From Pseudobutyrivibrio sp. (lineage in GTDB: Bacteria; Bacillota; Clostridia; Lachnospirales; Lachnospiraceae), in NCBI GenBank assembly GCA_017557435.1, contig JAFYYR010000013.1, forward strand, positions 1 through 64,000: a stretch of 64,000 nt of DNA. The letters run 5' to 3'. Of this stretch, positions 1 through 38,556 are shown piece by piece; within the stretch, counting starts at the first letter, position 1; the number at the start of each line of letters is the position of its first letter. Under the pieces are notes generated by a model. The model was not told the DNA's origin. It ran no database searches and saw only the letters and a list, made by a program, of their open reading frames with translations. The position numbers and the translations under genes are program-made.

Positions 1-440
1 AAGAAAAATTAAAAAGCAGGTTTTGTATATATTTGCACCGTGGCACATTCGACATCGTGTCTCAGCGTGACCACTGCTGCCGCCGTCCTAGCGGCAGCTG
101 CAAATATATTACAAAACCTGCTTTATATTTTTCTAAGTTCATTCCAAAATCGCCCCAAACACCCTCAGAACCATTTTTAACTGCCATCTTAGAGTAGCGT
201 GTGTCCACACATAAGCTACTTTTTTGAAAACTGTAAAGGCTTGAGAAAGACACATGAACTGCCTGTTGCCAATTTGCGTGTAGAAAAACCAAATATTCAT
301 GCTGTGATACCACAGGTGCCTCTTTATGGATAGCTAGAGCTATATTTGGTAATTAAAGTAAGCGGGATGTGGGCCTGGGGCCGGTGGAAAAGGGTGGGTT
401 ATGAAGGGCAGGATGGTGGATTGAGAGGGATTTTGCCGGA
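1..440 (-). repeat. Giant palindrome repeat, copy A1 (left part outside window)
   Basis: This is the right half plus apex of a long inverted repeat. The apex stem pairs 14-37 with 99-123, and a GC hairpin (GCTGCCGC/GCGGCAGC) lies at 76-98. Bases 1-137 are identical to 15697-15833 of copy A2, and similarity continues to about 215. The GC-rich stretch near 360-435 resembles the outer arm of A2. Read on the minus strand it shows the family motif GGAATGAACTTAG (133-146). The right boundary is uncertain because the partner arm is not in the window. No credible gene lies inside. Whether it acts as RNA or DNA is unknown. Confidence 0.75.
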
Positions 441-493
441 TAGTTGGTATGTATTTCAACTGAAAGCGGCGGGTATGAAATGTCAGACAATTG

Positions 494-502
494 TGATATA
501 AT
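494..502 (+). promoter_or_regulatory. Extended -10 promoter for the antitoxin/Fic operon
   Basis: TGATATAAT gives a consensus TATAAT at 497-502 preceded by the TG extension. No good -35 is visible 17 bases upstream, as is usual for extended -10 promoters. It lies about 90 bases before the antitoxin start. Confidence 0.5.
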
Positions 503-591
503 GTAACTAAGTTTTTTTGAACCGTTGTTTAGCATTTCGACGTAAAAGGTGTTGAAGAATGGAATTTAAGTCGATATCTAAGGAGAGGCTA

Positions 592-756
592 ATGTCTACA
601 GATGAAAAAATTGCAAGCGTAAGAGCTTCCTTTGCTATGGAAGACATGATACTCACTCCTGAGGAGATAGAGCGTGGGAGAATGATTATCGAAAAAGAGG
701 TTGATGTGGAAGATGTAGTTCGACAGATTACATCCAGGTATGTTTCGGTAGGATAA
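592..756 (+). CDS. VbhA-like antitoxin of a Fic toxin-antitoxin pair
   Basis: A 54-residue protein that probably keeps the Fic protein encoded four bases downstream inactive. VbhA-type antitoxins insert a helix with the motif (S/T)xxxE(G/N) into the Fic active site, so that its glutamate blocks productive ATP binding. Here residues 13-18 read SFAMED, which keeps the Ser and Glu but has Asp at the last position. The following LTPEEIERG segment also looks like the family. I chose the ATG at 592 because AGGAGAGG (581-588) sits just upstream; an in-frame ATG at 559 would add 11 residues but has a poor ribosome-binding site. Family assignment rests on the motif, small size and gene order. Confidence 0.75.
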   Translation: MSTDEKIASVRASFAMEDMILTPEEIERGRMIIEKEVDVEDVVRQITSRYVSVG

Positions 757-760
757 GCCC

Positions 761-1378
761 ATGATGGATGAATATTACCGCTATGAGTATGAGGATAACG
801 GCCAGTACTGCTATCCACACACTCATGTACTCAAAAACAAACTGGATATTAAGGACAAGGACGAGCTATTCAAGGTGGAGCAGGAGCTTAGCTCTGCCAG
901 ATATTTTGAGATTAGCCAGCGTCCGATTCCAGGGGATTTTTCTTTAGAACATCTTTGTGCCATTCACAGGTACTTATTTCAGGATATATACGAGTGGGCG
1001 GGTCAGATTCGCACCGTAGATATTTCAAAGGGCACTATTTTCTGCCTGACTCAGTTTATAGAATTAGAATTTAAAAAGGTCCATGAGTGGATAATTCATA
1101 ATAATTATCTTAAGGATGTGGATAACAAAACAGAGATGGCCCATAAGCTTGCCTATCTGATTGGAGAGATTAATATGATCCATCCATTTAGGGAGGGCAA
1201 TGGCAGAGCCCAGCGAGTTTTTATTGAGTATATCTGCAAGAATAGTAACCATTTTGACATCGATTTTTCTAAGACTACGAAGAACGATATGATACTTGCC
1301 AGCAAGGAAAGTTCCGTGCTAAATTATGAGCCGTTTGAGGAACTTTTATATGGTTGCTTGGTGGAAATGAATCAGTAA
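761..1378 (+). CDS. Fic domain toxin (putative AMPylase)
   Basis: A 205-residue Fic protein. Fic enzymes usually transfer AMP from ATP to a hydroxyl on a target protein; class I members are toxins held by a separate small antitoxin. The full signature HPFREGNGRAQR is at residues 141-152, with the catalytic His141 and the phosphate-binding GNGR loop, so it looks active. The N-terminal part has the usual Fic segments (an EWAG(Q)IRT stretch near residue 85). The protein is a bare Fic domain without a C-terminal targeting module. The preceding gene is the likely antitoxin, which makes this a class I pair. The target is unknown. An alternative ATG follows immediately at 764. Confidence 0.9.
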   Translation: MMDEYYRYEYEDNGQYCYPHTHVLKNKLDIKDKDELFKVEQELSSARYFEISQRPIPGDFSLEHLCAIHRYLFQDIYEWAGQIRTVDISKGTIFCLTQFIELEFKKVHEWIIHNNYLKDVDNKTEMAHKLAYLIGEINMIHPFREGNGRAQRVFIEYICKNSNHFDIDFSKTTKNDMILASKESSVLNYEPFEELLYGCLVEMNQ

Positions 1379-1417
1379 GATAATACACATGTTTCGGTAA
1401 ATGTGCCAACATATTCT

Positions 1418-1442
1418 AAAGCCCCTGTTCTAGGGGCTTTTA
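1418..1442 (+). terminator. Intrinsic terminator after the Fic gene
   Basis: Stem AAAGCCCC / GGGGCTTT around a short loop, ending in a T tract, 40 bases after the Fic stop codon. It separates the toxin-antitoxin operon from the surface protein gene. Confidence 0.85.
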
Positions 1443-1584
1443 ACATATTAATTTCACATAAATTTCATAAGAAAAACTGCATTCATATATAAAATTAATA
1501 ATAGAATTTGCCGATATGGAAATCGTAGTGGTATATCTACGTCTATTTTTTGTATAAAAAAAAACAGAAAAAGAGGGTTGGCAC

Positions 1585-4500
1585 ATGAATAATAGCATGA
1601 ATATTTTAAGAAGATTAATGGCTTTCTTGCTAGCATTGTTGCTTGTAACAACAATGGTTGGAGATGACTTTTACACCAGGGCTGAAGGTGAAGTTATAGA
1701 AAGCACAGAAGAATCTGGGGGAGAGGAAAACGCTGCGGCTCCAGAAGAAGGTGGAGGTAGCGAGTATACAGCACCAGAGGGAGAAGCTCCGGTAGAAGAA
1801 GTTGTCCCAGCGGATGTGACTGGAGATATTACTGGAGAACCTGGAGTAGATGGAGAAGTTCCAGGCCAGGATAATACAGGTATTGATAATCCTGTAATAG
1901 TAGATGAAAACGGAAATATTATTACTCCAGAAAATGGAGATGGAGCCTCAAATCAAAATGAGGCTAATAATGATGCCAACACCCCTGAAACTATAGATAC
2001 ACCAAGTGATGAGACAAATACAAATAACGACAATATAGAAAAACCTAGCACATCTGATGAGAATGTTTCAGAAGAGAAAACTGAAACTCCAAAGGTGGAG
2101 GAAGAGAAAGAGTCCGAAAAAGAAGAGCTCGAAGAAAAGGACGAGAAAGAAGAGCTGGCAAAAGAGGACGAGAAGGATAAAGAGTGTAAACATCAGTGGG
2201 ATTATATTAGCAATGGCGACGGCACACATGAGAAGATTTGTGCTCTCTGTGGTGAGTCAGTGACAGAAGACTGCTCTATGGAAGATGGAGTATGTATTCA
2301 CTGTGGTTACACAGAAGAAAAAGAAGACGAATACGAATATAAATACGAGTACACACCAAATGGTGATGGAACTCATATTAAAAGAACAATAAAGCGCAAC
2401 AAGAAGACAGGCGAAGAAGAAATCTCAGATGAGACAGAAGACTGTGAGTTTGATGCTGACGGCGTATGTATCCACTGTGGATTCAAAATGGAAGACATGG
2501 GATACAAGCTTGTCTATACAAAAATTTCAAAGACAATCGATGGCGTAGAAATTACTGTAAAGGGTGAAATGCCAGAGAATGCAACTGTAGAGATTCAGCC
2601 AATCAGCCTTGATTACGCTGAGCAGATTTTGGACAATGCAGGAAAAGAAAACAACGAAGTATTTAGAGCTTACGATATCACAATTTACGATGCTGATGGA
2701 AACAAGTATCAACCACAGACTGATGGTGGCGCTGTTGAAATCACTGTAAGTGGTATTGGTGAGTTAAATGATGTAGATGATAGTGCAGTAGAGGTACACC
2801 GTGTAGAGGAAGGCAATGGAGTTACAAAGCTTGACTCTAGTGTAAGTGGTTCTGACGTAACATTTGAGTCAGAGCATTTCTCATACATTATTATTTCTGC
2901 AGAGGAGACTTTGCCAGAAGAATCATATACTGTCCAAGGTGGAACGAAACTGGCAACTAGTGCACAGGCTACTAAATATACAAGAGTAACTACTGCTTAC
3001 ATATATATTGAGCTTGAAGAAGAGGAGGATGCTCCAACACTTACAGCTACATTCTATGATAGTAATAGCACAACAAATGATAAGCCTGGAACTGGAAATG
3101 CAATAGCAACAGCAACATGTGCAGGAATCACTGCGACTAACCCAGGTTGGTACAAGGCGGAATTTAATTTCACCTATACAGCAGGTACTGATTCTTATGT
3201 AAATCCTGGGGATTATTATTCAATAGTAATTTCTGGTTTCGTGGGAAGAAATTATGAAGTGAAGATGGGGCTTAGCTCACATAACACTTATACAATGACG
3301 GGTTCGTCTGCGATGTTACAGCCTGGTGTACTTGGAACTATAGGACTTAGTCTTGAAGAAATAGATGCTCCAGATGATGTAACAGGAATTACTATAACAT
3401 CTCAGAACAAGACATTAGATGGTGACAAGATTTACTATTCAGTTGGTGAGACAGATAAGTTAATCGCCACACTGACACCTAATTATGCAAGATCAATTAA
3501 GTGGACATTAGATTCAGGAAGTTGTATCAGCCTTGGAAGTGATGGTAGCATCACAGCTAACTCTGCAGGTACGGCAGTAGTTCAGGCAAAATACAGTGAC
3601 ACTATATTTGCAAAGGTAACAATTACTGTATTTGCTATTTCACTTTCTGATACAACATCAGGTTCATATACAACAAATTATTCAGTAGAGTACAATGCTC
3701 AGCCACAGAAGCCTCATGTAAAGCTTTCTGATGGAACAACAAACTATGGCGAGGAGCAGCTTGGAAATATTAGCTACTCAAGCAACAAGGATGCTGGTAC
3801 AGCAACAGTAAATGTTCCATATACAAGCTCTGGTGGAGTGACTTATACATTTACAAAAGACTTTACTATTACTCCAAAGCTTTTGACATGGGATGCTAAT
3901 TTTGCAAGCGCTAATTTCGTAATCGACACATCAAAGAACACTGTATCATCAGTTACTGGAGCAACAAGCGGACTTGCAGATATTCCACTTACACTGGGTA
4001 CTGATTATACAGTGGCACTTTCTGATAAGACTACTGGCACATCAGGAATTAGCTATAAAGTTACCATTACAGGTAAGGGTAACTACAAGACAGAAGATGG
4101 TTCTAATTATGGAACTTATGTTGTAGATACTAGTGCAGATGATATTTCAAAGTACTTAGAGGTACATTGGGTAAATGATGAAGAGCCTTCATTTGAATAT
4201 ACAGGAAAGGCCATCACAACTCCTACAGATGATTGGGCAAATTACTTTATATTCTATGAGGCAGGCACAAAGAAAGTAGCAAGCTGGGTTGCACCAAAGA
4301 CATCAACAAGCGGTAATACAACTGCTACATATACAGATAATGAAAATGTAGGTGATGCTACAATTAGCTTTGCTGTAGATGGTTACAAGGGTACACTTAC
4401 ACTTAACTTTAATATTTATGAACTATCAATCAGCAATAACAGTAGTGTAGTAGCTACACTTGCTAAGTCAGAGTACACACGTACAGGCGAAGAAATAAGA

Positions 4501-7500
4501 CCTGAAAGCGATCTCACTGTTACATTTAAGGTAGATGAGTCTACTACAAAGACACTTGTAAAGGATACAGACTATGAGCTTACTTATGCTAATAACACAG
4601 CAGCAGGTATAGCTACAATTACAATAAAGGGTATTGGAAACTTTACAGGTCAGCAGACAAAATCATTTACAATTACTCCTAACTTTACGGATGATGCTGT
4701 AATCTGGGTAAATCAGAATGGTAATTATAAGGCATCTAGCAGTACAGGATGGAAGTCTGGATATTCGAGAGTTTATACTGGAAGCGTGATTCAACCAACT
4801 GCTCACTTATATTTGGGCGGTACTCGATTGACACAGACTCAGGTAAATAGTACAGCAGATGGTTATTATGTAGAGTGGGCTGATAGCGTTACCGCTGATA
4901 AGCACAAGGCATCTGAGCTTACAGCTAATGCAGGCACAAAGTATCTTGTCTGTGTTGGTACTGGTAAATATAATGGATTCTGCGCTGCAGCAGAGTATAC
5001 CGTTTCAAAGGTAAATATTGGAACAAATACAGATATTAGCTTTAACTTAAATACTACATCCTTTACTTATACAGCAGATCCAGTAGAGCTGAAGAGAACA
5101 GACTATACATTATCATTTAATGGAACAGACCTTGTAGAAGGCGCTGATAAGGACTTTACAATTGTTTACAACAACAATCACACAGATGTAACTAATTCAG
5201 CAAGCTTTACAATTAAGGCCTCTGAAAACAATTACACTGGTTCATTAAGTGGTACATTTGCAATTACACCAGCAACAATCAAGGATAGCAATATTACCCT
5301 TGAATACACTAGCATTGCTTACACTGGTGCGGAAAATAAGCCAGGTGTTACATTGACACTTGATAATGGCAACTTTGTAAGTGATAGCAATTACACACTT
5401 TCATACGCTAATAATATTGCAGCAGGCACAGCTACAGTTACTGTAACTGGTGTTAACAACCTTACTGGTGCAGTGCCTAAGTCATTTACAATTACATCCA
5501 GAAGTGCGGCTAATTTAACAATAAAGCTCAATGGATATCAGGTAACTGACAGCGAGTTTAGCCCAGCAAGTGGTTCAAGTGATTTATATAAGTACTGCTC
5601 AAGCTATAAGCCAAAATATACAGGCAAGAAGCTCAGACCTAGCGTAGAGGTATTTGATGGAGCAACACAGCTCAGCTATGATGACTTCACATATACATAC
5701 GTTAATAACGAAAATGTTGTTGAATATAATTCATCTAACGTATCTACATTAAAGGCAAGTTATGTAAAAATTAGTGGTCAAGGTAACTACTATGGAACAG
5801 GAGATATCTATGTCTTCTTCGAAATCCAGCCTAGAGACCTAAGCGCAAGCACAATAGATATAACAGTTGCTGCACCTGATTGGTCAGCAAGCCACACTGG
5901 CACATATAGCCCAGTGATTACAATTGTTGATAATGGCTCAGATTTGATATCAAGTAAGCGCGGAAAGGCTCTTGATCCAGCAACAGCCTATACTGTAACA
6001 GCTGACAGCACAGCAACAAAGGCTGGCTCAGGCTATACAGCTACTATTACAGGTAAGGGTAACTATACTGGAACAGTAGAAGAGACTTATGGCGTTGGTC
6101 ATGATATTTCAAATCCAACAACAGTTGTACTTAAGAATCCTTATGACACAACAGAGAATTATTCATTATCAGAAGGATGTTATCAGGTTGATTACATTGG
6201 CTCAGATAAGACTCCTTATGAAGTGCTTACAGTAGATGGTGCTACATTAAGTTCTTCTGAGACTAGTCCTTCAAATTATCAGTATCAGGTAGAAAGTAGA
6301 ACATCAGATGCTGGATATGACCTTTATAACTCACATGGTGATCAGAACATTATCACTGTAGTACTTAAGGGTAATGAGGATAAGGGTTACTACGGAACAT
6401 ATACATACAAATATAGAATCAAGAGAATTGATTTATCCGTAAATGGAAGCACTCCAAGCAATACTCATATTTCACTTAAGTGTGAAAATGATCCTGCTAC
6501 TAGAAAGTACACAGGAGAAGAGCTAAATCTTGCACATACTACACCTGATGATGGTGAGTTAACTATTACATATAAGGTGGGCTCATTCTCAGAAGAGCTT
6601 AAGTATGGTGCAGACAAGGATTACACAATGCTTCCAGAAACCATCGGACCAGATAAGGGTGTAACTACTGTCTATGTTTCTGCAACAGCAGATAGCAACT
6701 ACAAGAATGGATTCAATTACATCTATACAATTGGTGCTGGTGAGTTAAAGAAAATTGATATTGCAGAAGGTGGTCAGGTCTACAAAGACGACAGTGGTGT
6801 GTACTGGGTATACTACACAGGCTCTTCAATTAATATTGATTCAAATTTAACTGTATACAACTCTGGTAACAAGCCACTTACACAGGGCAGAGATTACACA
6901 TTAAACTATGATACAACAGGCCTTGTAAATGGAATTGGAACAATTACAATCACAGCAACAGGTACAGGTAACTATGCAACTACATCTACTGCAACAGCCA
7001 CATTTGAGGTACGTGCAATTGATGTAGGTGGCGATGATTTCAAGGTAATAGTAGGTTCGCCTTACTATGAATTTACAGGAAGTCAGATTAAGCCAGCAGA
7101 CATTACTGTATACTATGGAACAACTCTTCTTAGAGAAGATACAGACTATACATTAAGCTATGGTACAAATACAGTTCCTGGTAAGAACCTTAGCGATAAC
7201 TATGTTCAAGTAACAGGTAAGGGCAAGTACCAAGGAACGAAAAAAGAAAATATCAATATTTACATGATGCTTAGAAATATGAGCATCTCTAAGGAGGGAA
7301 ATAAGCTCGTTGCTAAGAACGGTCTCGTAAAGGTAGAGCTTGATAACACTACATTTACAGTAGGCGAGACACCTACAGCTTATCTTTACTACTCAACTGG
7401 AACAGACACATGGTCATCAGCAATTGACGCTTCTAACTACACTGTTACAGGTAGTCAGCGACCAGGAAATGGTTCTGTCACTGTTACAGGAGTTACAACT

Positions 7501-10500
7501 GGTACTAACTTTGTAAATGGAGCGATTACATTTGACAATGTTCCATTTAAGACACCTATAAACAGCGATGTTGCTAATGCAAGATTACTTCAGAGCGACT
7601 TTGCTTATACTGGTGGCGATATAAATGTTGATACATATATAGCACTTGCCTACGGTGAGAAGGATGTGGACTACACAGTTACATATCCAACAGATATCAA
7701 GTCAGTAGGTGCTAAGACAATTACACTTACAGCAAAGCCTGACTCAGCATTTTACACTGGTTCAGTTCAGCTTACATACAACATAAAATATGATTTAAAT
7801 GATGCTGAGATTTCTCTTTCTGGCACAGGTATTACTTATGGCGCCGATGGTGTATATCGCGCAGCATACACAGGCTCTGATATTTCATTTAGCGTGACTG
7901 TTGTGTGTGGAGGAAAGACAGTTCCTTCTGCTTCACTTGCAATCGACCCTAGTTCAAAGACAGTAAGAAATGTTGGAACTCACACTATTACAATCTCTAA
8001 GGGCGAGACAGCCACAGATGTAATGGGTGATCCTCAGACAATAGAGCTTGTGGTAAGTGGTATTGATATCACAGATTACTATAGAGCCTTTAAGCAGAGC
8101 AATGGCTCATATGCAGAATCATATACTGCAGAATTTACAGGCAATGATATTAAGCCTACTGTCTTAATTAAGCCTGAAGCAGATAGCGCTACTACACTTG
8201 TTAGAAATGTAGATTACACACTTGAGTATCACAACTGTATAAATGCTACTCAGACAGAGCGAAGCACATATGTAACAGTTACAGGTATGGGTGCTTACTC
8301 AGGTACATTTAATATGTACTATACAATTACACCAGTAGATTTATCTAAGTGTAATATAAGTGTAGATCAGGCAGTATATGCAGGCCCTGGTGTTCCAGTA
8401 AAGCCAGCTGTAAGAATTACTTATGGTACTCTTACACTTAAGCGTGGAACAGACTATCAGATTAATGATGAGACTGCGTACAAGAACAATGATATCGGCG
8501 CAACTGATTATCTTGAGGCTGAGGCCACCAGGATAGGTCAGCCATTTACTGCTTATCCATCAGTAACTATTACACCTGGTACAAATGGAAATTATGCAAT
8601 TGCAGGTGGTGCTTTAAATGCTGACTTTAGAATTAATAAGTTAGATTTACGTAGCACAACAGTAACTATTGGAAAGACAAGTGCCGAATACACAGGAGAT
8701 CCTGTGCCACTTGACAGCAGCATGTTAAGTCTTGAGGTAAATGGTCAAACACTTGAATACAATAGTGACTATGAATTGACAATCCTTAATTCAAATAATT
8801 CTCCTGTATCTGAAATAGTAGATAAGGGAGAATATACAATCACAATTACTGGTATTAGAAGTTGTGATCAGTCTATAACAAAGAGATTTACTGTAACAGA
8901 CAGATCAATTCCTGCAAACTATGTAAATGGTACAGGAAGCATCTCTATTACAGTAGGTGATGTATCTACAATTGGTGGTACACCAACAGTTGTTATTAAG
9001 GACGCAGGTGTGGCTGGAGCATCAGTAGATAATCCAGTTACATTGAACGATGGTTCAGATTCTACAAAGCCAACAGACTATACAATTACTGTAGTTGGAA
9101 ATGATAAATCAGGTGAAGGTGGATGGGATACTTCAAAGACACAGGATTCTTATGGAAACTATGATGTAAAAGAAGGCTCACCATACGTGGTTATCACAGG
9201 TACAGGAAACTATAGTGGAGAGCAATTTAAGGTACCATTTAGCGTTGGTAAGTCACTTCCTGATCTTGCAGCAGAAGGCAAGTTCTCTTACCACAAGGAT
9301 GGCACTTACATCCAAGAGTTTACATACGATGGAGTAAGTCATTTACCTAAGCTTACAGAAGTATATGTTGTAGAGGATGATGGAACACACACAACTCTTA
9401 CAGAGGGTACAGACTTTGAAATCCAGGTAGTAAATGATTCTGGAGATGTTGATACAGTAAACGCAGGAGTTAAGACTGTAAACATTATCGGTAAGGGTAG
9501 ATACTACGGTACAGTAACTGATTCTTACAAGATAAATACAAGAATTCTTGAAGGTGAGGTTACATGGAAGAATAGTTATACTCGCGATACAAGCGGTGTA
9601 AATATTGATAAGGTTACTCTTAAGTTAGAGGGACCAGATCTTACTACACTTACAGCTGCTAAGTCATCTGAGATATTTGGTGATGCTTCATTTGCAGGTT
9701 ACTATTATCAGGAATATGATGGTAAGCCAATCACACCTACAATCACAATTACTGATGGTGGTCTTGCAAGCGGCTCTACAGCACAGATACTTAGAGAAAA
9801 TGTTGACTACACAGTAAGATATGATGACAACAATAAGTACTACGACCCAACAGTTCCTGATGCTAAGATGGCATGTGTAACAGTTACATTCCCAACAGAT
9901 TCAGGCAACTATGCTGGTTCAACAACAACTATTAAGGCATACTTCATAATAGGTCAGAGCTCAATCGGAGATGGTAAGTTCAAGGTACAGTTTGAACGCG
10001 AAGATGAGTTGCAGCTATTAGATTATGCATTTGACTACACAGGTACATATATAACTCCAGCAGTTGTAGTATCTAACACAGCTGACGCTAAGCTTAAGGA
10101 AGGCACAGATTACAAGGTTTACTACACAACAGAGTTGTTGGAAGACACTTCAACTGAAAGCCTAGTTGAGGCTAACAAGAAGCAACCTAGAGACCCTGGT
10201 AAGGGATATGTATATGTAGAGGGTATAGGAAGCTACAAGGGTGTGCTCTACAGAGAGTACAAGATCATGGCTAACATGGATCAGTGTACATTTGTAGGCT
10301 ACAAGCCAGACGGTGTAACAATTGATACATCTGTTGAAGGCATTCCAGATCAGTTCCTTACAGGTCAGGAGATTGACCCAATATTTGCGGTAATCCTCTA
10401 CAGATCAGATGGAACATACATGACTCTTACAAAGAATACTGATTATACAGTAGTGGTATCTTCTGATGATAACTATACCTCAACAGGTAAGGTTACAATC

Positions 10501-11655
10501 ACAGCTAAGAGTGCATACTTCAGAGGAGAAAAGGTAGGTAACTTCAATATTGCTCTTGATAAGAGCCTTATTAAGATTATCAACTTCAACGAAGAGTACA
10601 TGTACACAGGCCGTGCTATTAAGCCTGACTTTGAGACAAATTATCCTAATATTTTAGTAGATGATAGTCTCACAGAATACTTTAGAAGAACTTACAATTC
10701 AAACGGTTCATACACTGATGTACCAGTTACTTCAGATGATGACCTTAAGAATGTAGGAACTATAGCAGCTACAGTTCATTGGTTCGTAGAGAGTGATCCT
10801 ACTCAGACTGGTGAGCAGACAGTAGAGTACAAGATTATAGAGCGTCCAATCGACGATTGTAAGGTAGTACTTGCTAAGACCCAGAGATACACTGGCAAGC
10901 CACAGACTCCAAGCTTTACAATATTCCTTAAGGTTGAGGATATTGATGGTAAATCAAGAGTGTATACTCTTAAGGATTCTGACTACACTGTTACATACGG
11001 TGGAGAGGTAAGCGGCACAGGTACAATTACAATTAAGGGTACTGGCAACTTCTCAGGCACAAGACTTGATAACTTTGAAATTGCTCTCTGGCCAATAGTT
11101 AATCTACATGTTACAGCATATACTCAGGATAGTATTTCAGTAGCATGGGCAAGAGATATGTATTCAGAGGGAACAGAGCTTGATATTGAGAACCTTGGAA
11201 CAGGCGCTATCCAGACAGTCAGAGTGGAAGGCAAGGCAACAAGCTACACATTCAAGAACCTTACAGGTAGCACAAAGTACAGAATTTCTGCACGTGCTTA
11301 CGTTGGAACTGGAATATTTAGCTCTAAGGATGTAAGCATAGACCAGGCAACTGAGATTTCAACAGCAGCATTTAGAGTTGCAAGCAACTCAGCTGGTTCA
11401 ATGACAATTACATGTACAAATTCATCAAGCGTAACCATGTACTACATCTACCGCGATGACAACACAACATCAAAGGCAGACGATACACTTATAGCAGTAA
11501 TTCCTAAGTCATCTGGTGCAGAGACAAGCTACACCAACTCAGGATTGACTAGCGGAAAGACCTACTATTACTACGTACAAGGCTACTATCTTGACAGCAA
11601 TAAAGACTTAGAGCTTGTATCAGAATCTGATTACGTAAGTGCAACAGCAAAATAA
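1585..11655 (+). CDS. Giant secreted repeat protein (3356 residues), putative adhesin
   Basis: Residues 1-35 form a signal peptide (Arg-Arg, then a Leu-rich core). Residues 36-200 are an acidic Glu/Pro/Asn/Thr-rich linker. At about 202-242 and 286-304 lie CxxC-containing, zinc-ribbon-like segments of the C..H.W...GDGTH...C..CG type. A group-2 bacterial Ig-like domain spans about 595-690. From about 700 to 3170 there are some 25-30 diverged units of roughly 75-100 residues, recognisable by YTG, GTDYT, YxNN, GTATVTITGKGNYTG and a closing FxI strand. Two fibronectin-III-like domains (about 3170-3260 and 3262-3356) end the protein. There is no C-terminal sorting signal or membrane segment. The repeats are similar in protein but not in DNA, so they are old. 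The next genes are a sortase and a sortase substrate, so a surface role is likely; the ligand is unknown. Confidence 0.85.
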   Translation: MNNSMNILRRLMAFLLALLLVTTMVGDDFYTRAEGEVIESTEESGGEENAAAPEEGGGSEYTAPEGEAPVEEVVPADVTGDITGEPGVDGEVPGQDNTGIDNPVIVDENGNIITPENGDGASNQNEANNDANTPETIDTPSDETNTNNDNIEKPSTSDENVSEEKTETPKVEEEKESEKEELEEKDEKEELAKEDEKDKECKHQWDYISNGDGTHEKICALCGESVTEDCSMEDGVCIHCGYTEEKEDEYEYKYEYTPNGDGTHIKRTIKRNKKTGEEEISDETEDCEFDADGVCIHCGFKMEDMGYKLVYTKISKTIDGVEITVKGEMPENATVEIQPISLDYAEQILDNAGKENNEVFRAYDITIYDADGNKYQPQTDGGAVEITVSGIGELNDVDDSAVEVHRVEEGNGVTKLDSSVSGSDVTFESEHFSYIIISAEETLPEESYTVQGGTKLATSAQATKYTRVTTAYIYIELEEEEDAPTLTATFYDSNSTTNDKPGTGNAIATATCAGITATNPGWYKAEFNFTYTAGTDSYVNPGDYYSIVISGFVGRNYEVKMGLSSHNTYTMTGSSAMLQPGVLGTIGLSLEEIDAPDDVTGITITSQNKTLDGDKIYYSVGETDKLIATLTPNYARSIKWTLDSGSCISLGSDGSITANSAGTAVVQAKYSDTIFAKVTITVFAISLSDTTSGSYTTNYSVEYNAQPQKPHVKLSDGTTNYGEEQLGNISYSSNKDAGTATVNVPYTSSGGVTYTFTKDFTITPKLLTWDANFASANFVIDTSKNTVSSVTGATSGLADIPLTLGTDYTVALSDKTTGTSGISYKVTITGKGNYKTEDGSNYGTYVVDTSADDISKYLEVHWVNDEEPSFEYTGKAITTPTDDWANYFIFYEAGTKKVASWVAPKTSTSGNTTATYTDNENVGDATISFAVDGYKGTLTLNFNIYELSISNNSSVVATLAKSEYTRTGEEIRPESDLTVTFKVDESTTKTLVKDTDYELTYANNTAAGIATITIKGIGNFTGQQTKSFTITPNFTDDAVIWVNQNGNYKASSSTGWKSGYSRVYTGSVIQPTAHLYLGGTRLTQTQVNSTADGYYVEWADSVTADKHKASELTANAGTKYLVCVGTGKYNGFCAAAEYTVSKVNIGTNTDISFNLNTTSFTYTADPVELKRTDYTLSFNGTDLVEGADKDFTIVYNNNHTDVTNSASFTIKASENNYTGSLSGTFAITPATIKDSNITLEYTSIAYTGAENKPGVTLTLDNGNFVSDSNYTLSYANNIAAGTATVTVTGVNNLTGAVPKSFTITSRSAANLTIKLNGYQVTDSEFSPASGSSDLYKYCSSYKPKYTGKKLRPSVEVFDGATQLSYDDFTYTYVNNENVVEYNSSNVSTLKASYVKISGQGNYYGTGDIYVFFEIQPRDLSASTIDITVAAPDWSASHTGTYSPVITIVDNGSDLISSKRGKALDPATAYTVTADSTATKAGSGYTATITGKGNYTGTVEETYGVGHDISNPTTVVLKNPYDTTENYSLSEGCYQVDYIGSDKTPYEVLTVDGATLSSSETSPSNYQYQVESRTSDAGYDLYNSHGDQNIITVVLKGNEDKGYYGTYTYKYRIKRIDLSVNGSTPSNTHISLKCENDPATRKYTGEELNLAHTTPDDGELTITYKVGSFSEELKYGADKDYTMLPETIGPDKGVTTVYVSATADSNYKNGFNYIYTIGAGELKKIDIAEGGQVYKDDSGVYWVYYTGSSINIDSNLTVYNSGNKPLTQGRDYTLNYDTTGLVNGIGTITITATGTGNYATTSTATATFEVRAIDVGGDDFKVIVGSPYYEFTGSQIKPADITVYYGTTLLREDTDYTLSYGTNTVPGKNLSDNYVQVTGKGKYQGTKKENINIYMMLRNMSISKEGNKLVAKNGLVKVELDNTTFTVGETPTAYLYYSTGTDTWSSAIDASNYTVTGSQRPGNGSVTVTGVTTGTNFVNGAITFDNVPFKTPINSDVANARLLQSDFAYTGGDINVDTYIALAYGEKDVDYTVTYPTDIKSVGAKTITLTAKPDSAFYTGSVQLTYNIKYDLNDAEISLSGTGITYGADGVYRAAYTGSDISFSVTVVCGGKTVPSASLAIDPSSKTVRNVGTHTITISKGETATDVMGDPQTIELVVSGIDITDYYRAFKQSNGSYAESYTAEFTGNDIKPTVLIKPEADSATTLVRNVDYTLEYHNCINATQTERSTYVTVTGMGAYSGTFNMYYTITPVDLSKCNISVDQAVYAGPGVPVKPAVRITYGTLTLKRGTDYQINDETAYKNNDIGATDYLEAEATRIGQPFTAYPSVTITPGTNGNYAIAGGALNADFRINKLDLRSTTVTIGKTSAEYTGDPVPLDSSMLSLEVNGQTLEYNSDYELTILNSNNSPVSEIVDKGEYTITITGIRSCDQSITKRFTVTDRSIPANYVNGTGSISITVGDVSTIGGTPTVVIKDAGVAGASVDNPVTLNDGSDSTKPTDYTITVVGNDKSGEGGWDTSKTQDSYGNYDVKEGSPYVVITGTGNYSGEQFKVPFSVGKSLPDLAAEGKFSYHKDGTYIQEFTYDGVSHLPKLTEVYVVEDDGTHTTLTEGTDFEIQVVNDSGDVDTVNAGVKTVNIIGKGRYYGTVTDSYKINTRILEGEVTWKNSYTRDTSGVNIDKVTLKLEGPDLTTLTAAKSSEIFGDASFAGYYYQEYDGKPITPTITITDGGLASGSTAQILRENVDYTVRYDDNNKYYDPTVPDAKMACVTVTFPTDSGNYAGSTTTIKAYFIIGQSSIGDGKFKVQFEREDELQLLDYAFDYTGTYITPAVVVSNTADAKLKEGTDYKVYYTTELLEDTSTESLVEANKKQPRDPGKGYVYVEGIGSYKGVLYREYKIMANMDQCTFVGYKPDGVTIDTSVEGIPDQFLTGQEIDPIFAVILYRSDGTYMTLTKNTDYTVVVSSDDNYTSTGKVTITAKSAYFRGEKVGNFNIALDKSLIKIINFNEEYMYTGRAIKPDFETNYPNILVDDSLTEYFRRTYNSNGSYTDVPVTSDDDLKNVGTIAATVHWFVESDPTQTGEQTVEYKIIERPIDDCKVVLAKTQRYTGKPQTPSFTIFLKVEDIDGKSRVYTLKDSDYTVTYGGEVSGTGTITIKGTGNFSGTRLDNFEIALWPIVNLHVTAYTQDSISVAWARDMYSEGTELDIENLGTGAIQTVRVEGKATSYTFKNLTGSTKYRISARAYVGTGIFSSKDVSIDQATEISTAAFRVASNSAGSMTITCTNSSSVTMYYIYRDDNTTSKADDTLIAVIPKSSGAETSYTNSGLTSGKTYYYYVQGYYLDSNKDLELVSESDYVSATAK

Positions 11656-11666
11656 GTAAAATTGAG

Positions 11667-15443: not shown

Positions 15444-16070
15444 CCCTTTCATCCACAGCGCCAAGTAAGCTAAAGGCCACGCCCTCGCCCTGCCCGGGCC
15501 CGCCACCGGGGTGTGGAAACAATTTTGCGAATATTATAGTTTTTCAATATGCAAAGAGTGAACATCTGCATGTGTCTTTTTAAGAATAAACCGTTTTTAA
15601 AAATGTAGCTGACCTGTGTGGACACCTATTTGGTATCAATGGCAGTTTTACAAAATGATTCTTAAGAGGGTGTTTTGGGCTCATAATACATTCACTAAGA
15701 AAAATTAAAAAGCAGGTTTTGTATATATTTGCACCGTGGCACATTCGACATCGTGTCTCAGCGTGACCACTGCTGCCGCCGTCCTAGCGGCAGCTGCAAA
15801 TATATTACAAAACCTGCTTTATATTTTTCTAAGCTCATTCCAAAATCGCCCATAACACCCTCAGAATCATTTTTTAACTGCCATCTTAGTGTACAGTGTG
15901 TCCGCGCAGAAGCTACATTTTTGAAAACTGTGGAGGCTTGAAAAAGACACATGCCTATAAAAGATGTGAACTTTGCATATATGAAAAACATAATATTCTT
16001 GCAAAGTTACACCCTAGGGGTGGCGGGCGGGGCCAGGGGCAGGGCGCGGCTTAGCCAGTAGAAAAGGGCA
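15444..16070 (-). repeat. Giant palindrome repeat, copy A2 (complete)
   Basis: This imperfect inverted repeat of about 627 bases fills the gap between two convergent genes. The apex stem pairs 15710-15733 with 15795-15819 and contains a GC hairpin (15772-15794) and a side stem. Further pairing continues outward on both sides: the conserved CTAAG blocks near 15697 and 15831; GAGGGTGTTTTGGGC with GCCCATAACACCCTC; ATGTGTCTTTTT with AAAAAGACACAT; a segment around ATGCAAAG with CTTTGCAT. It ends in GC-rich arms (about 15476-15520 with 16007-16050). Family sense is the minus strand, from comparison with A3 and A4. I see no gene inside. Confidence 0.85.
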
Positions 16071-25412: not shown

Positions 25413-26110
25413 ACAGTTGTAAACACACATCACAAAGAGAGCAGGCTCCGCCGGCTCTCTTTTTTTATAAATTGAGCCCCTTCACTGATAGCCCCTCCAT
25501 GCACCTGCCACCGGGCCCTGGGATATACTCTCAAAGAATCTCTGTTTTCTAAAACGCCAACAACGCTTTTTTATTAGAGTGTGTTCGTTCCAAGTTTTAC
25601 AATTCTGCCGAAAATGATTACCCATGACGGACATTATTTATATTTTAGTTATCTGTTTTTACAATCTAGATTTGCAGTAATTCCGCTTCTTTGGAATGAA
25701 CCTAGTAAAACAGAAACAGGTTTTGTTTAACATAAGCACGAGGCGCCACGGACGGCGCCGAGAGCCTGACAGTGAAACGGACTGAACTTGAAGGCGGTGC
25801 ATATGTTTACAAAACCTGTTTCGTAGTTTTACTTGGAGAATGTATCAGAAGAGGAATTATGCAAATTCTAGATGTAAAAACAGATATAAGATTCTCAAAA
25901 ATGTTCGTCATGGGTAAAGCATTTTCTTCGAATAGTAAAAGCTTGAAAGGACACACTCAAAAGCTTTTGTTGGCATTTTGAAAACAGGGGATTCTCCTCG
26001 AATTGTATATCCCAGGGCCCGGTGGCCGGTGCAGGGGCATCAGTGAAGGGGCCAGAATAGGGATTTGGGAGCCGGCGGAGGCTGCTGTAAATAAATGTGT
26101 TTACAACTGT
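25413..26110 (+). repeat. Giant palindrome repeat, copy A3 (complete)
   Basis: An imperfect inverted repeat of about 698 bases. Outer pairs: 25413-25427 with 26096-26110 (15 of 15), 25441-25457 with 26069-26085 (16 of 17), 25476-25528 with 26005-26052 (mostly paired, including GGGCCC blocks). The apex (25714-25821) pairs AAACAGGTTTTGT with ACAAAACCTGTTT and holds the hairpin GGCGCC-ACGGAC-GGCGCC (25742-25759) and a side stem. Family motifs lie at 25690-25705 and 25832-25849. Its left arm contains the terminator of the TSCPD gene and its right arm abuts the nadA promoter. No gene inside is credible. Confidence 0.88.
25436..25467 (+). terminator. Intrinsic terminator after the TSCPD gene
   Basis: AGAGAGC / GCTCTCT stem with a GC-rich loop and seven T residues. 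The loop and 3' arm also pair with 26069-26085 in the giant palindrome, so two folds compete. Confidence 0.85.
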
Positions 26111-27086: not shown

Positions 27087-27099
27087 AGGTAATAAAGAT

Positions 27100-29258: not shown

Positions 29259-29266
29259 GAGGCGTC

Positions 29267-29797: not shown

Positions 29798-29799
29798 CG

Positions 29800-29817
29800 T
29801 TTAGCCAAGGGGCTAAA
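29800..29817 (+). terminator. Short hairpin after niaR
   Basis: TTTAGCC-AAGG-GGCTAAA directly follows the niaR stop codon. There is no T tract, so it may be part of the structured region that follows rather than a classical terminator. Confidence 0.4.
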
Positions 29818-29833
29818 TTAAGCGAGTAATTAA

Positions 29834-29988
29834 GCAAGTAATTATCAAGCTCTTAGTGTTGCTGCAGCTTCTTAGCACAAGCATTCGCTTGTGTACACAC
29901 TAAAAGTCTACCTTACAGTCGACTTTTAGTATGATTTTGACGTGTTAGTCGACGAAAGCAACATCTAAGGCTTGAGAATGTAACTTGC
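29834..29988 (+). repeat. Structured repeat, copy B1 (bulged-stem family)
   Basis: The closing stem pairs GCAAGTTA-type ends (29834-29841 with 29981-29988), then CAAGCTCTTAG (29846-29856) with CTAAGGCTTG (29965-29974), leaving one unpaired T, then GTTGCT with AGCAAC. Inside are the hairpins CACAAGC/GCTTGTG (29876-29893) and ACTAAAAGTC/GACTTTTAGT (29899-29930). It fills the spacer between niaR and ung. Copies with the same bulged stem are at 42646 and 58246. Confidence 0.7.
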
Positions 29989-30003
29989 GTAGGGAGTCGA
30001 AAA

Positions 30004-30678: not shown

Positions 30679-30724
30679 AACACCAGAAATCACAGAAAAT
30701 TCATGGTTTAATCCGCTGAATTCC

Positions 30725-30753
30725 TTGTTATTTTAAGGGGTTTAAATTATAGT
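30725..30753 (+). promoter_or_regulatory. Promoter of the hybrid kinase operon
   Basis: TTGTTA (30725-30730) and TATAGT (30748-30753) are 17 bases apart, about 60 bases before the kinase start. Confidence 0.55.
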
Positions 30754-30811
30754 TAGTTTAGAGATTTACGCACATTATGATATGTGGAAATAATGATAGA
30801 GGCGGGTTAGT

Positions 30812-33256: not shown

Positions 33257-33275
33257 TTGCTGAAGGAGAGGGCTC

Positions 33276-34040: not shown

Positions 34041-34052
34041 TAACTAGCTTAC

Positions 34053-34092
34053 AAGCGGGGTCACTTAAGTATATCTTAGGTGGTCTCGCTTT
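34053..34092 (+). terminator. Intrinsic terminator after the response regulator
   Basis: AAGCG...CACTTAAG pairs with CTTAGGTG...CGCTT around TATAT, followed by TATTATTT. Confidence 0.75.
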
Positions 34093-34147
34093 ATTATTTA
34101 TGATAAAATATTTCTAATTGAGGGGTGAATAAAGTTAGGGAGAACGT

Positions 34148-35230
34148 ATGCGAATTATTCATTGTGCAGACCTGCACTTAGATTCCAAAATGGAGAGCAA
34201 TTTAGATAAAGAACAGGCCTTACTCAGGCGCTCGGAGCTTATTGAGACATACGAGCGCATGGTGGAGTACGCTGTAGACAATCAGGTTAGAGCTATTCTC
34301 ATAGCCGGTGATTTGTTTGATAAGCAGCACATCCGCAAGGAGGTTAAAAGGCGAGTGGTGGAGCAGATTGTAGCTCATCCTGAGATTGATTTTTATTATC
34401 TCAAGGGCAACCACGATAGATGTGACTTTATGGAGGCTGGTATCGATGAGGTGCCTGCTAATTTTCATATGTTTACAGATGAGGGCTGGACTAGCTATAC
34501 ATGTGAGGATGTGGTAATTACAGGTATTGAGATTAACTCATCAAATGCCAATACTCTTTCTCAGAGTCTGGTGCTGGATTCGGCAAATACCAATATTGTT
34601 ATGCTTCATGGTCAGCAGTCAGATTATGACGGCAAGGATGGAGCAGAGATTGTAAATACTAATGCCTTAAAGGGCAAATTCATCGATTATCTGGCGCTTG
34701 GTCATATTCATAAGTATATTTTCCAGCAGCTAGATGATAGAGGCGTATATTGCTATCCAGGCTGCCTAGAGGGAAGAGGATTTGATGAGACAGGAGACAA
34801 GGGCTTTGTCCTTATGGAGGTTGAGGATGGTGTTATTACATCAGAATTTATCCCATTTGCCCTTAGACGTCTTCACGAGATTGAGGTGGCTGTCACAGCA
34901 GAGATGGATGTTCAGGCCGTCATAAGTAAGGCTAAGAGGCAGCTGGATGATGTGGATCCTCAGGATATGATTAAGTTTGTCATCACAGGAGAGCGTGAGC
35001 TTGAGGATGAGATAGATATCACTAGATTTGTTAGAGCATTTGAGAATAAATACTTCTTTGTAAAGTGCTATGACAGAACTAAGACTTTGATTGACTACGC
35101 TAGCTATCAGTACGATAAATCCCTTAAGGGGGAGTTTGTCAGACTGGTTCAGTCCCAGGATATGGATGAGGACGAAAAGGCTAAAATTATAGAGATAGGC
35201 ATAAAGGCCATAATGGGGGAGGATATATAG
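34148..35230 (+). CDS. SbcD/YhaO-like DNA repair metallophosphoesterase
   Basis: A 360-residue calcineurin-like phosphoesterase. Metal-binding motifs are in order: DLH (residues 8-10), GDLFD (about 57-61), GNHD (about 92-95), HGQQ (about 157) and GHIH (about 180). The pattern is that of Mre11/SbcD nucleases, closest by overall layout to B. subtilis YhaO. The next gene, one base downstream, encodes the SMC-like ATPase partner, so both probably form a nuclease complex that processes DNA ends. Confidence 0.88.
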   Translation: MRIIHCADLHLDSKMESNLDKEQALLRRSELIETYERMVEYAVDNQVRAILIAGDLFDKQHIRKEVKRRVVEQIVAHPEIDFYYLKGNHDRCDFMEAGIDEVPANFHMFTDEGWTSYTCEDVVITGIEINSSNANTLSQSLVLDSANTNIVMLHGQQSDYDGKDGAEIVNTNALKGKFIDYLALGHIHKYIFQQLDDRGVYCYPGCLEGRGFDETGDKGFVLMEVEDGVITSEFIPFALRRLHEIEVAVTAEMDVQAVISKAKRQLDDVDPQDMIKFVITGERELEDEIDITRFVRAFENKYFFVKCYDRTKTLIDYASYQYDKSLKGEFVRLVQSQDMDEDEKAKIIEIGIKAIMGEDI

Positions 35231-35231
35231 G

Positions 35232-37904
35232 ATGAAACTTATTTCTTGTTATATTGCCCATTTTGGCAAGATAAATGATTTTAAATATGATTTTAATGAT
35301 GGCTTCAATTCCATCCTTGAGGAGAATGGATGGGGTAAGACCACATTCTCTGTTTTTATTAAGGCTATGTTTTATGGCTTGGAGTACTCTCCAAACACCA
35401 AGAAAAAGCTTTTAGAGCGCAATCACTATCTTCCTTGGGATGGTAGTCTTTGTGGTGGCAATATTGTCTTTTCTACCAAAGAGGGCCAGTATCGAATCGA
35501 GAGGACCTTTGGTAAGACAGACAAGGAAGACACATTTGCAATTTATGACGATGTGACAGGCCTTGAGTGCACAGCCTATACAAGCAATGTGGGAGAAGAG
35601 ATTTTCAAGGTGGACAGAGATTCCTTTGAAAAGAGTGTATATATTCCACAGCTTTCACTGGGCACATCTATGACAGATTCTTTGAATGCTAAGATGGGTA
35701 ATCTTGCAGCAGCTAAGGACGACATCAGCAATTTCGATGTGGCCCTTAAGAGTGTCAAGGACGCAAGAACAGAGTACACCAGAAATAGTAAAATCAATCC
35801 AGGTAAGCTTGTTGCTGTTAAGCAAGAAATCAACAAATGCAAAGAAGAGTTTGAAAAGCTTCCTATTTTCGAAGAGAGCGTGGAGGCTATGAGTTGCCTT
35901 GTTGAGGAAAAGCAGGCTAATTTAGACGCTCTTGTTATGGAAAAAGCGAAACTCACTGAGACTATTCAGCAACAGAGTAAGAGAGAGCAGGAGCTTGGCG
36001 CATACAGAATTCAAAAGGAGAACCTCAATCAGGAGCTGGAAAAGGCCAGTGAATTTGAGACATTCTTTGCAACTGGTGTTCCAAATGATGATGAGATTGC
36101 AATGCTTGAGCAGACAGAGAGAGATTTGACTGTTCATGAGAGAGCACTTCATGGTCTCAAGGAGAATATTCAGCGCGAGAATCCAGTATTTGAGGCTCCA
36201 TTTAAGGAGAGAATACCAGATATTTCAGAGTTTGATCTGTGGAATAAGATGGCAGCTAATCTCTCAGAGCTTAGAGCAAAAGCAGAGCATTCCAAGCTTT
36301 CAGAGGAGTCTAATAAGCAGCTTACAGAGCTTAAGTTTTTCTTTGGCAAGCTAGTGCCTACAGATGAGCAGTTGGCAGAGGTTGAGCACGCCACAACTGT
36401 GATTACAGGATTAGAGGCCCAGTTGTCCCAGAGCAATGACAGACTTAAAAGTCTTACAGCTGAGCGAGACATAATGGAGAAGCTCAATAAAAAAAGAAAT
36501 ATCAAAATATGGCACATACTAGGCACAGTGCTCCTTGTGATATTTATTATTTTTGGAATTGTATTCAGTCAATATTTAGACGAGTATTTAGGCAGAATTG
36601 TTGAAACAGGAAGTATTGCAGCAATAGTAGTTGATTTACTTCTTCTTGTTATATCCGGCAGGAGAGCTCGCGTTAATAGAGTAAAAGAGGCCAAGGACTA
36701 CGAGGAGCGCATCCAAGAGGAGGAGGACTCTATCGAGATTACTAAGCTTGAGCTTAGAGAGTTACTGGAAAAATGTAATGAGTTCTTGTCTAATTATCTC
36801 TTAACCAGAGCGGATACCATGCAGGAAAATGTTTACGAGATTCGTCGTAAGCTAGACCAGTATAGACATCTATTAGATGAGGAGCAGTCTCGACATCAGG
36901 AGGCGGAAGGCACACTTGATGAATTGGCAGACCTGCAGCTTGAGCTTTACACTAAGATACAGCCATTTGCCGCACCATACGGTATTAATCTATACGAGAT
37001 GGGTGGAGAATACGAATTCTTGGCAAAGCTTAAAAAGGATGCAGATAGATATTCAGACTTCTTAGAGGAATCAGAAGAGATAGCTCGTCACGAGAATTCT
37101 ATAAAAACTATGACAACTGATATTAAAAATATCCTTGAGAAGTTCCCAGTGGATACAACTCTTGATAGAGCTGAGCAGATTCAATCCATAAGCGCTAAAA
37201 AGCGTGATTATTTTGCTATTAAGGAGCGTATAGAGAATCTTAAGTCAGAGATAGCTGCATTTGAAACTAAGCACGCCGTAGATGACAATGTACTGTCAGT
37301 AGATGACTTGCAGCGACAGCAGAATGCTCTTGATGAGCAGATGATGGAGATTAACAAGCAGCTTCTTCAGGAGAAGGATAATTTATCTGCAGCCCTTGAG
37401 GAAGTGGAGCGACTTACAGATGTTTCAGAGCAGATAGAGCGCCTTGAGGTTCAGGAAAAGGAATATAAAAAGAGCGCAGAGCTTTTAATTAAGACAGAAG
37501 ACTTTTTACAGAAGGCTCGTGAGAGCTTCCAGGCAAAATACATGCAGCCTTTGCAGAATGGTCTCCACAAGTATTTAAGCCTTATTGATGGACCTACAGG
37601 CACCCATTCAGGCTACTCTATAGAGGACTTTGAGCTGGATATGGACCTTAACATTAAGCTTTCCTACTCTGGTAGCACTAAGGGGGCAGAATACCTATCA
37701 CAAGGCTATCAGGACGTGGTTGCACTTTGTTCTCGTCTTGCTCTTGTAGATGTGCTCTATCCAGATGAGAAGCCTATTCTCATCTTAGACGATCCATTTA
37801 CCAACCTAGACGACAAAAAAATAAAGGAGTCACTTAAGCTCCTTAACCGCATAGCGAAGGATCGCCAAACCGTCTACTTCACATGCCACGAAAGCAGATT
37901 GTAA
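35232..37904 (+). CDS. SbcC/YhaN-like SMC-type ATPase with central membrane segments
   Basis: An 890-residue ATPase. Walker A is NGWGKTT (residues 32-38). Long coiled coils flank a centre with two hydrophobic helices (about 424-478), a feature of YhaN rather than of SbcC, which has a zinc hook there. The C-terminal head has LSQGYQD as ABC signature and ILILDDPFTNLD as Walker B. Together with the preceding phosphoesterase it should form a membrane-linked Mre11-Rad50-like complex. Its stop codon lies five bases before the first paired bases of palindrome A4. Confidence 0.88.
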   Translation: MKLISCYIAHFGKINDFKYDFNDGFNSILEENGWGKTTFSVFIKAMFYGLEYSPNTKKKLLERNHYLPWDGSLCGGNIVFSTKEGQYRIERTFGKTDKEDTFAIYDDVTGLECTAYTSNVGEEIFKVDRDSFEKSVYIPQLSLGTSMTDSLNAKMGNLAAAKDDISNFDVALKSVKDARTEYTRNSKINPGKLVAVKQEINKCKEEFEKLPIFEESVEAMSCLVEEKQANLDALVMEKAKLTETIQQQSKREQELGAYRIQKENLNQELEKASEFETFFATGVPNDDEIAMLEQTERDLTVHERALHGLKENIQRENPVFEAPFKERIPDISEFDLWNKMAANLSELRAKAEHSKLSEESNKQLTELKFFFGKLVPTDEQLAEVEHATTVITGLEAQLSQSNDRLKSLTAERDIMEKLNKKRNIKIWHILGTVLLVIFIIFGIVFSQYLDEYLGRIVETGSIAAIVVDLLLLVISGRRARVNRVKEAKDYEERIQEEEDSIEITKLELRELLEKCNEFLSNYLLTRADTMQENVYEIRRKLDQYRHLLDEEQSRHQEAEGTLDELADLQLELYTKIQPFAAPYGINLYEMGGEYEFLAKLKKDADRYSDFLEESEEIARHENSIKTMTTDIKNILEKFPVDTTLDRAEQIQSISAKKRDYFAIKERIENLKSEIAAFETKHAVDDNVLSVDDLQRQQNALDEQMMEINKQLLQEKDNLSAALEEVERLTDVSEQIERLEVQEKEYKKSAELLIKTEDFLQKARESFQAKYMQPLQNGLHKYLSLIDGPTGTHSGYSIEDFELDMDLNIKLSYSGSTKGAEYLSQGYQDVVALCSRLALVDVLYPDEKPILILDDPFTNLDDKKIKESLKLLNRIAKDRQTVYFTCHESRL

Positions 37905-37908
37905 AATA

Positions 37909-38556
37909 AACCTACACCACATGTAGGCCACCACCACAAAATAGATAGGCCCCGCACATAGGGCAGCACCTACGCCCCGCCGGGGGTCCCACACTTTGCC
38001 TTCAGATTATGATTTTCTAAGTGTGCAGGTGCGCTTCTTCTATGGTGGGCGTTCTTTCGATTATTTGCAATTCTGACGCTACAGTTCGTGGAAGACAGAC
38101 ACATTTATTTTTAAATATAGCTTCCAAGGCAAGCTTAGGAATAATTGCGTGATTTTGGAGTGAGCTTAGTGAAATAAAAAAGAGTTTTGCAATGTATTGG
38201 CACGAGCCGCCATGGACGGCGGCGAGAGTACGAAAGCAACACGACGTTGCATAAAGTACGGTGCCAATACATGCAAAACTCATTTTTTTAATTTCACTTA
38301 GCGAATGGATTATGAACGCAATTATCCTAAGTCTTGATTGGAAGCTATTTTATATTACGCTCATGTCTGTCTTCCACGTACAGCAGCTTCGAATAGCAAA
38401 ATCAGCGAAAGGACACCCACTAGAAGCTCCCTTTGCACACTAAGAAAATCTATAATCTTCGCAAAATTGTGTGGGACCCCCGGCGGGGCGTAGGTGCTGC
38501 CCTATGTGCGGGGCCTAATATAAAAGTTGTGTGGTGGCTAGAAGCGGTGTAGGTTT
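37909..38556 (+). repeat. Giant palindrome repeat, copy A4 (complete)
   Basis: This repeat of about 648 bases has a perfect 49-bp GC-rich outer stem (37946-37994 with 38469-38517). Weaker pairing extends outward (AACCTACACC near 37909 with GGTGTAGGTT near 38546). The apex stem pairs GAGTTTTGCA with TGCAAAACTC and GGCAC with GGTGCC. It contains the hairpin GCCGCC-ATGGAC-GGCGGC (38206-38223) and a side stem (GTAC/GTAC and GCAAC/GTTGC, 38228-38259). Family motifs are at 38154-38169 and 38297-38315. It lies between convergent genes, and its right end overlaps the last codons of the minus-strand gene. Confidence 0.9.

Follow-up and report, generated by a model that had tools for sequence, protein, structure and literature searches.

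The stretch analysed here, referred to as the window, comprises the first 64 kb (positions 1 to 64,000) of contig C8 (JAFYYR010000013.1) in an incomplete 2.8-Mb genome of Pseudobutyrivibrio sp. (GCA_017557435.1; G000). It carries four large intergenic palindromes, A1, A2, A3 and A4 (Table 1), belonging to a group of elements that in Pseudobutyrivibrio form palindromes of about 600 to 850 nt with an RNA motif at the tip. They are probably copies of a mobile, non-autonomous element that bears an RNA apex and whose arms were made by template switching. Inverted repeats were present at all four sites: over 32 nt at 81% in A2 (15476-15507/16019-16050), over 32 nt at 94% in A3, and over 49 nt at 100% in A4, which has additional inner and outer helices. 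Arm scores exceeded the maximum of their own shuffled sequences in 34/34 loci (10 shuffles each), the lowest being 35 vs. 12, with 130 vs. 15 for A3 and 132 vs. 14 for A4. The original prediction, made from the sequence of the window, was therefore right that these palindromes exist, and several of its further points hold: (i) the shared three-way-junction apex and the overall anatomy, (ii) the placement at ends of transcription units, (iii) arms which differ between copies yet stay complementary, and (iv) the guess of many copies per genome, as G000 has about a dozen sites, many of them at contig ends, including a copy just past the window (C8:65594).

Table 1. Positions of the palindromic elements and their parts in the 64-kb window.
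Feature	Position	Strand	Remarks
A1, partial element	1..440	-	core about 1-265, right outer arm after it; cut at contig start
A2, hybrid: left half of element X and right half of element Y	15444..16070	-	
A2 TwoAYGGAY apex	15684..15844	-	58.8 bits
Upstream gene's own terminator stem, at A3	25440..25457	+	mirrored at 26069-26086
A3, 627 nt without counterpart at orthologous G013 site	25469..26095	+	
A3 left outer arm, copy-specific, C-rich	25497..25528	+	partner 26005-26036
A3 TwoAYGGAY apex	25690..25847	+	48.4 bits (whole-window scan)
A3 right outer arm, G-rich	26005..26036	+	
Inverted copy of A3 upstream terminator stem	26069..26086	+	absent at empty G013 site
A4, 630 nt without counterpart at orthologous G013 site, inside intrinsic terminator hairpin	37907..38536	+	
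Split terminator stem at A4, left half and adjoining bases	37908..37926	+	AAACCTACACC...
A4 left outer arm, 49 nt	37946..37994	+	100% complementary to 38469-38517
A4 TwoAYGGAY apex	38153..38313	+	64.4 bits (whole-window scan)
A4 right outer arm	38469..38517	+	pairs with 37946-37994
Split terminator stem at A4, right half	38538..38556	+	...CGGTGTAGGTTT

Two of the four copies are not complete single elements. A1 is only a part, because the contig start cuts it off; the flank that it lacks corresponds to the end of contig C1, and in G013, the closest relative (88-92% DNA identity with the window at the A3 and A4 sites), the same site is occupied by an element whose core is inverted relative to the flanks. 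A2 joins the halves of two elements, by assembly or by real recombination, since its left arm pairs with the end of contig C14 (25 bases, no mismatch) and its right arm with the start of contig C3 (32 bases, perfect), whereas complementarity between its own arms is 76% over 90 columns and its left and right flanks lie on two different contigs in G013. Assembly breaks or joins at elements were seen at window 15444-16070 and on G000 contigs C1, C2, C3, C5, C14, C18, C19 and C26; for several elements, orthologous halves in G013 show which G000 contig ends belong together. This is also a warning that assemblies of these rumen bacteria can break and cross-join at these elements.

The apex is not new: it corresponds to the Rfam family RF01731 (TwoAYGGAY), an RNA candidate of unassigned function, and scores above the gathering score of 43 bits in A2, A3 and A4. 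The A2 value was obtained with its 721 bases under laxer filters, the match being unlisted in the whole-window scan, and A1, without a separate RF01731 score, shares 94% DNA identity with A2 over 257 nt. The statement of the original prediction that no named RNA has this plan is thus incorrect for the apex, and its suggestion of a new RNA class fails, because a match to a known Rfam family was the very finding that the prediction had named as refuting it. The surrounding palindrome, in turn, lies outside the RF01731 description: the family is 168 nt long, and giant arms, mobility and arm copying form no part of it. TwoAYGGAY appears in a table of PMC2864571 as a probable RNA, marked there as neither cis-regulatory nor a switch. 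The first apex loop has GGAC in all four copies; by reading, the second is ACGGAC in A3 and has no GGA in A1, A2 and A4, while both AYGGAY loops are present in most of 31 copies from other genera.

Binding of CsrA by the TwoAYGGAY loops is a prediction put forward in PMC4333381, a paper that deals with predicted CsrA-binding small RNAs. In our sample csrA is present in 28/29 genomes with the motif, which is compatible with that prediction and no proof of it, given that 23/32 motif-less genomes also have the gene and that A1, A2 and A4 seem to be devoid of the second GGA loop. The apex probably still works as an RNA, with CsrA binding as its published predicted role. In another genus, locus L034 has two TwoAYGGAY copies in opposite orientation about 240 nt apart (G036:C47:139778 and 140187), and a similar pair occurs on G036:C33.

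Among the genomes from the search for relatives, 29/61 have matches to RF01731 (27/29 in the genus, the window's own counted), with copy numbers of up to 38; in a sample of the phylum they were found in 51/398 genomes, 34 of these over the cut-off. The giant arms, however, were seen in this genus only among the loci tested, the apex elsewhere occurring without them. A centred palindrome of at least 500 nt surrounds the apex in 25/31 Pseudobutyrivibrio loci (the misses being L041, L042, L043, L046, L058 and L060, with L042 and L046 near contig ends) and in 20/23 copies of genome G002 (misses L062, L064 and L074, with L062 and L074 at contig ends), as against 0/31 testable loci from other genera. 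The latter comprise 3 + 27 loci and L092, which was recentred and has a palindrome of about 210 nt; off-centre matches were left uncounted, and the total is 31 rather than 32 because L112 starts at a contig end. A rough survey of gene orientation round 89 elements gave 26 convergent, 51 codirectional and 6 divergent cases, 4 undetermined and 2 too short.

The 23 copies in G002 reveal a conserved core with copy-specific surroundings. Identity over about 480 nt is 85-98% among many of them and 72-80% among others, with alignments that mostly end at the same edges, beyond which the sequences are unrelated; no terminal repeat common to the copies was found outside the core. Yet in most copies the outer arms are near-perfectly complementary over 40-50 nt, often with further helices. 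Among 87 elements, complementarity of the left arm with its own right arm averages 35.9, vs. 7.8 with the right arm of another copy (local complementarity, 235-300 nt from the apex; 435 cross-pairings, maximum 16; a first run with n=86 gave 36.2 vs. 8.0), and the own-arm score lies above the cross-pairing maximum in 77/87. A total of 80/87 elements combine a C-rich 5' arm with a G-rich 3' arm. This is the only compositional rule kept, as a palindrome gives the same result on both strands; a proposed orientation of the C-rich left arm with the apex was dropped for that reason. In two groups of G002 copies the apex seemed to be turned with respect to the inner arms, but this arose from loci that had not been strand-oriented. 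Additional insertions occur in one arm of the L064 and L185 cores; in L064 they look like a row of small hairpins.

Presence and absence of the element at orthologous junctions were compared at several sites. A3 and A4 are missing from G013, as pieces of 627 nt and 630 nt, respectively. Where the element is missing, the A4 site is an intrinsic terminator, AAAACCTACACCG-CTAAAAA-CGGTGTAGGTTTTT, whose hairpin encloses the element in the window. Beside A4, 24 loci carrying a homologue of the neighbouring protein were sampled: 23 at 63-93% identity in records under the name Pseudobutyrivibrio, apart from one named Butyrivibrio fibrisolvens 16/4 (closest homologue P. xylanivorans MZ8, 93%), and one from an uncultured Lachnospiraceae at 38%. 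No apex occurs within 1,400 nt of the gene end in 23/24 relatives, and the one found (L218) is presumably an independent insertion. An apex is likewise absent in 23/26 loci up to 900 nt from the gene to the right of A2 (present in G000, G002 and G014) and in 25/27 loci up to 1,000 nt from a gene on contig C23 (present in G000 and G013); minor matches were omitted from these checks (L257-L260 and L288-L289, respectively). The same sequence is therefore found at different places and orthologous sites without it exist, which is the mark of a mobile element. In both species the element at the C23 site is bordered left and right by TAGCA, which may be a target duplication; A3 and A4 have no clear one.

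Comparison of occupied orthologous sites shows the arms changing together. Arm-by-arm alignment of seven pairs (excluding more distant ones and L193/L201, in which L193 is truncated) gave 262 unchanged columns, 41 changed in both arms and still complementary, 89 changed in one arm and 133 otherwise, the last two classes including unpaired ends. In L055/L057 the left arms share 37% identity between species and 68% with their own right arms, while flanks share 82-86% and cores 91%. Indels are mirrored as well: L164 is missing bases, and L204 carries additional ones, at matching places of the two arms. In 3/7 pairs (L039/L040, L196/L204 and L197/L205) the core is inverted relative to the flanks, with 93-98% identity when inverted and 66-74% when not. 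The excluded pair occupies one junction, with a 350-nt version in G012 (L193), whose two arms are symmetrically short of the outer part, and a full element in G019 (L201). In L047/L053 the arms are conserved and the core looks as if it had been replaced.

The arms also contain inverted copies of flanking DNA. The right arm of A3 holds the terminator stem of the upstream gene in inverted form (score 16 vs. a null maximum of 15; 0/1000 shuffles). At the C23 site (L169, L183) the right arm contains an inverted copy of the last codons and post-stop bases of the upstream gene, by eye one for a sugar-binding protein. With 25 nt beyond the stop codon included and cheaper gap extension, 0/1000 simple shuffles reached this match in G000 and in G013 each; the coding bases alone are weaker (reached by 23/1000 shuffles in G000 and 187/1000 in G013). 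The two copied words of this flank were found in 0/25 empty-site loci. In L068 the palindrome spans the ends of two convergent open frames (0/1000 shuffles). A general scan for mirrored gene ends tested 119/178 gene ends and placed 28 above the control maximum; it is contaminated by frames that run into arms, and only hand-checked cases were used. Arms changed together in blocks, inversion of the spacer and an inverted flank copy, the features by which template switching is recognized, were all observed.

An RNA stem tolerates G-U pairs on its own strand, and A-C pairs not. Mismatches were therefore counted in an alignment that treats both strands alike. Among 37 non-redundant elements the G-U:A-C ratio was 27:9 in the apex stem (p 0.004, only a guide as the elements are related), 107:95 in the core arm and 83:79 in the outer arm; for all elements with full arms the values were 61:25, 208:207 and 181:199, respectively. 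As the excess of G-U is found in the apex stem only, the apex resembles an RNA read in the TwoAYGGAY orientation, unlike the remainder of the element. One-strand wobble tolerance throughout, expected of a large structured RNA of the ROOL/GOLLD kind, was not found. A simple count of G-U vs. A-C thus separates an RNA-like apex stem from a remainder that is not RNA-like.

These observations bear on what the palindrome is as a whole. One structured RNA of 600-850 nt, whose arms stay paired through selection acting on the transcript, would agree with the very low folding energies, with the compensatory changes between species and with an apex that is a curated RNA family with a G-U excess. However, the excess does not extend to the 150-nt core arm or the outer arms, both strands fold equally well (-309, -371 and -379 kcal/mol for the sense strand of A2, A3 and A4 in RNAfold, and -307, -368 and -382 kcal/mol for the opposite strand), identical indels occur in both arms, the arms contain copies of coding ends and terminators, and other genera keep the apex without giant arms; we regard such an RNA as quite unlikely. 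The large RNA offered in the original prediction is accordingly not supported, while its cruciform-forming DNA repeat comes nearest to the evidence, incomplete in that the element is also mobile and its arms evolve by mutual copying. Compensatory change, the usual proof of a functional RNA stem, is in the long arms apparently due to DNA copying.

We propose that an imperfectly palindromic core of about 480 nt, carrying the TwoAYGGAY motif at its tip, would move as such and insert at gene ends, which in the observed cases means in or next to intrinsic terminators. Its strong hairpin would make the replicating strand fold back at the core edge, whereupon DNA polymerase would copy one flank in inverted form onto the other side and then return to its template. 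Repeated switching of this kind may create and refresh the copy-specific outer arms, draw terminators and gene ends into the palindrome, and turn the core round. Outward copying from the core edge would perfect the outer arms alone and spare the imperfect core, as is seen. PMC8604942 and PMC8794818 describe template switching at inverted repeats as homogenising arms, extending stems by inverted copies and inverting spacers, which is what the present elements resemble. The yeast cases reported differ in having spacers of 2-5 bp, whereas here a core of about 450-500 nt is inverted, the arms reach hundreds of nt, and all this takes place on a repeated mobile unit.

A bolder form of the proposal, which we hold to be doubtful, is a self-building palindrome, in which the core is a mobile seed, the fork folds back and copies the chromosome into a growing hairpin, gene ends become inverted duplicates, and spread without a transposase of its own could occur by template switching between the low-complexity C-rich/G-rich arms and terminator hairpins.

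Several points weigh against the mobile element with template-switched arms. The empty sites may also reflect precise loss, the far-side gene of the compared junctions varies among genomes, and G013 has at the A2-right junction a C-rich stretch that resembles a left arm and has no core, which could be a remnant of an element. No transposase, recombinase or reverse transcriptase was identified, none having been systematically sought. In the arm alignments, columns changed in one arm exceed the compensated ones, though the windows include unpaired ends, and 3/7 pairs are without any compensated column. Nor is the core always the slower part, as that of L047/L053 shares only 63-72% identity, with flanks at 83-89%. 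Ten of the 87 elements (L041, L043, L058, L060, L064, L117, L119, L165, L166 and L193) have own-arm scores of 5-15, no better than cross-pairings. For the C-rich arms of A4 no source was found in the genome, so template switching explains their pairing and not their first origin: the left arm matches in G000 only its own mirror and one 14-nt stretch by chance (E 2.3), and none of the 12-mers of the 49-nt arm occurs in the 24 orthologous junctions beside the A4 gene. Lastly, a bias to G-C pairs with G first is discussed for RNA stems in PMC8794818, whereas the 5' arms here are C-rich.

The same lack of a source speaks against insertion into long hairpins that already existed, with the outer arms as the split target. 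Such an origin is suggested by the position of A4 inside a terminator hairpin and by core-less long hairpins at some junctions (G013 site 5, L227, L245 and L247); yet the A4 arm was found neither at the orthologous junctions nor elsewhere in the genome, empty sites lack the right-hand copies of the terminator and the coding end, and orthologous arms differ between species yet stay paired, so that we think this improbable. A related possibility is the same element with arms homogenised by gene conversion or recombination of the RecA type instead of polymerase template switching. This would likewise yield concerted arms and inverted cores, but it does not account for fresh inverted copies where flanks were unpaired, as with the A3 terminator and the L169 coding end, and we rate it as unlikely, if a little less so. 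An artefact of assembly or library preparation, with fold-back reads, might be suspected from the many G000 contigs that end at elements and from the hybrid A2; the same structure in other genomes, including the 2-contig G012 and the 3-contig G003 (locus L047), and orthologous copies at the same junctions make it extremely improbable.

Intergenic palindromic repeats such as ERIC, BIME/REP and MITEs are likewise non-coding, repeated, palindromic and placed at ends of transcription units. Their arms are typically common to the family, whereas those of the present elements are unique to each copy. Nematomorph mitochondrial genomes have coding palindromes, long perfect inverted repeats reaching into genes (PMC6649704), but the available part of that account contains nothing on a repeated element with a shared core. 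Searches of the literature on Pseudobutyrivibrio palindromes retrieved no such element by title, and the TwoAYGGAY literature was searched too; to judge from these searches, the element has not been described before. New here are the giant palindrome with a mobile core seen in this genus, the copy-specific and co-changing arms with their inverted copies of flanking terminators and gene ends, the core inversion and the G-U excess limited to the apex stem. The element is a candidate new class of bacterial mobile element, formed round an RNA motif that was listed without a function in 2010, and offers a natural system for following template switching, homogenisation of arms and inversions of about 500 nt among closely related species.

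A second kind of long hairpin, core-less and about 60-140 nt long, was noticed inside terminators (L227, L245, L247, L189 near 10290-10430, and L207). By reading, several of these have an internal loop, AGT / ACGTA, between two variable stems; a scan for such a family gave 3 exact cases only. Elsewhere in the window, positions 1585-11655 hold an open frame of 3356 aa with no NCBIfam match. A4 lies directly downstream of a gene pair (34148-37904) encoding a calcineurin-like phosphoesterase and then an 890-aa protein with weak SMC/Rad50-like matches, which by these similarities appears SbcD/SbcC-like; SbcCD is a nuclease that cuts hairpins.

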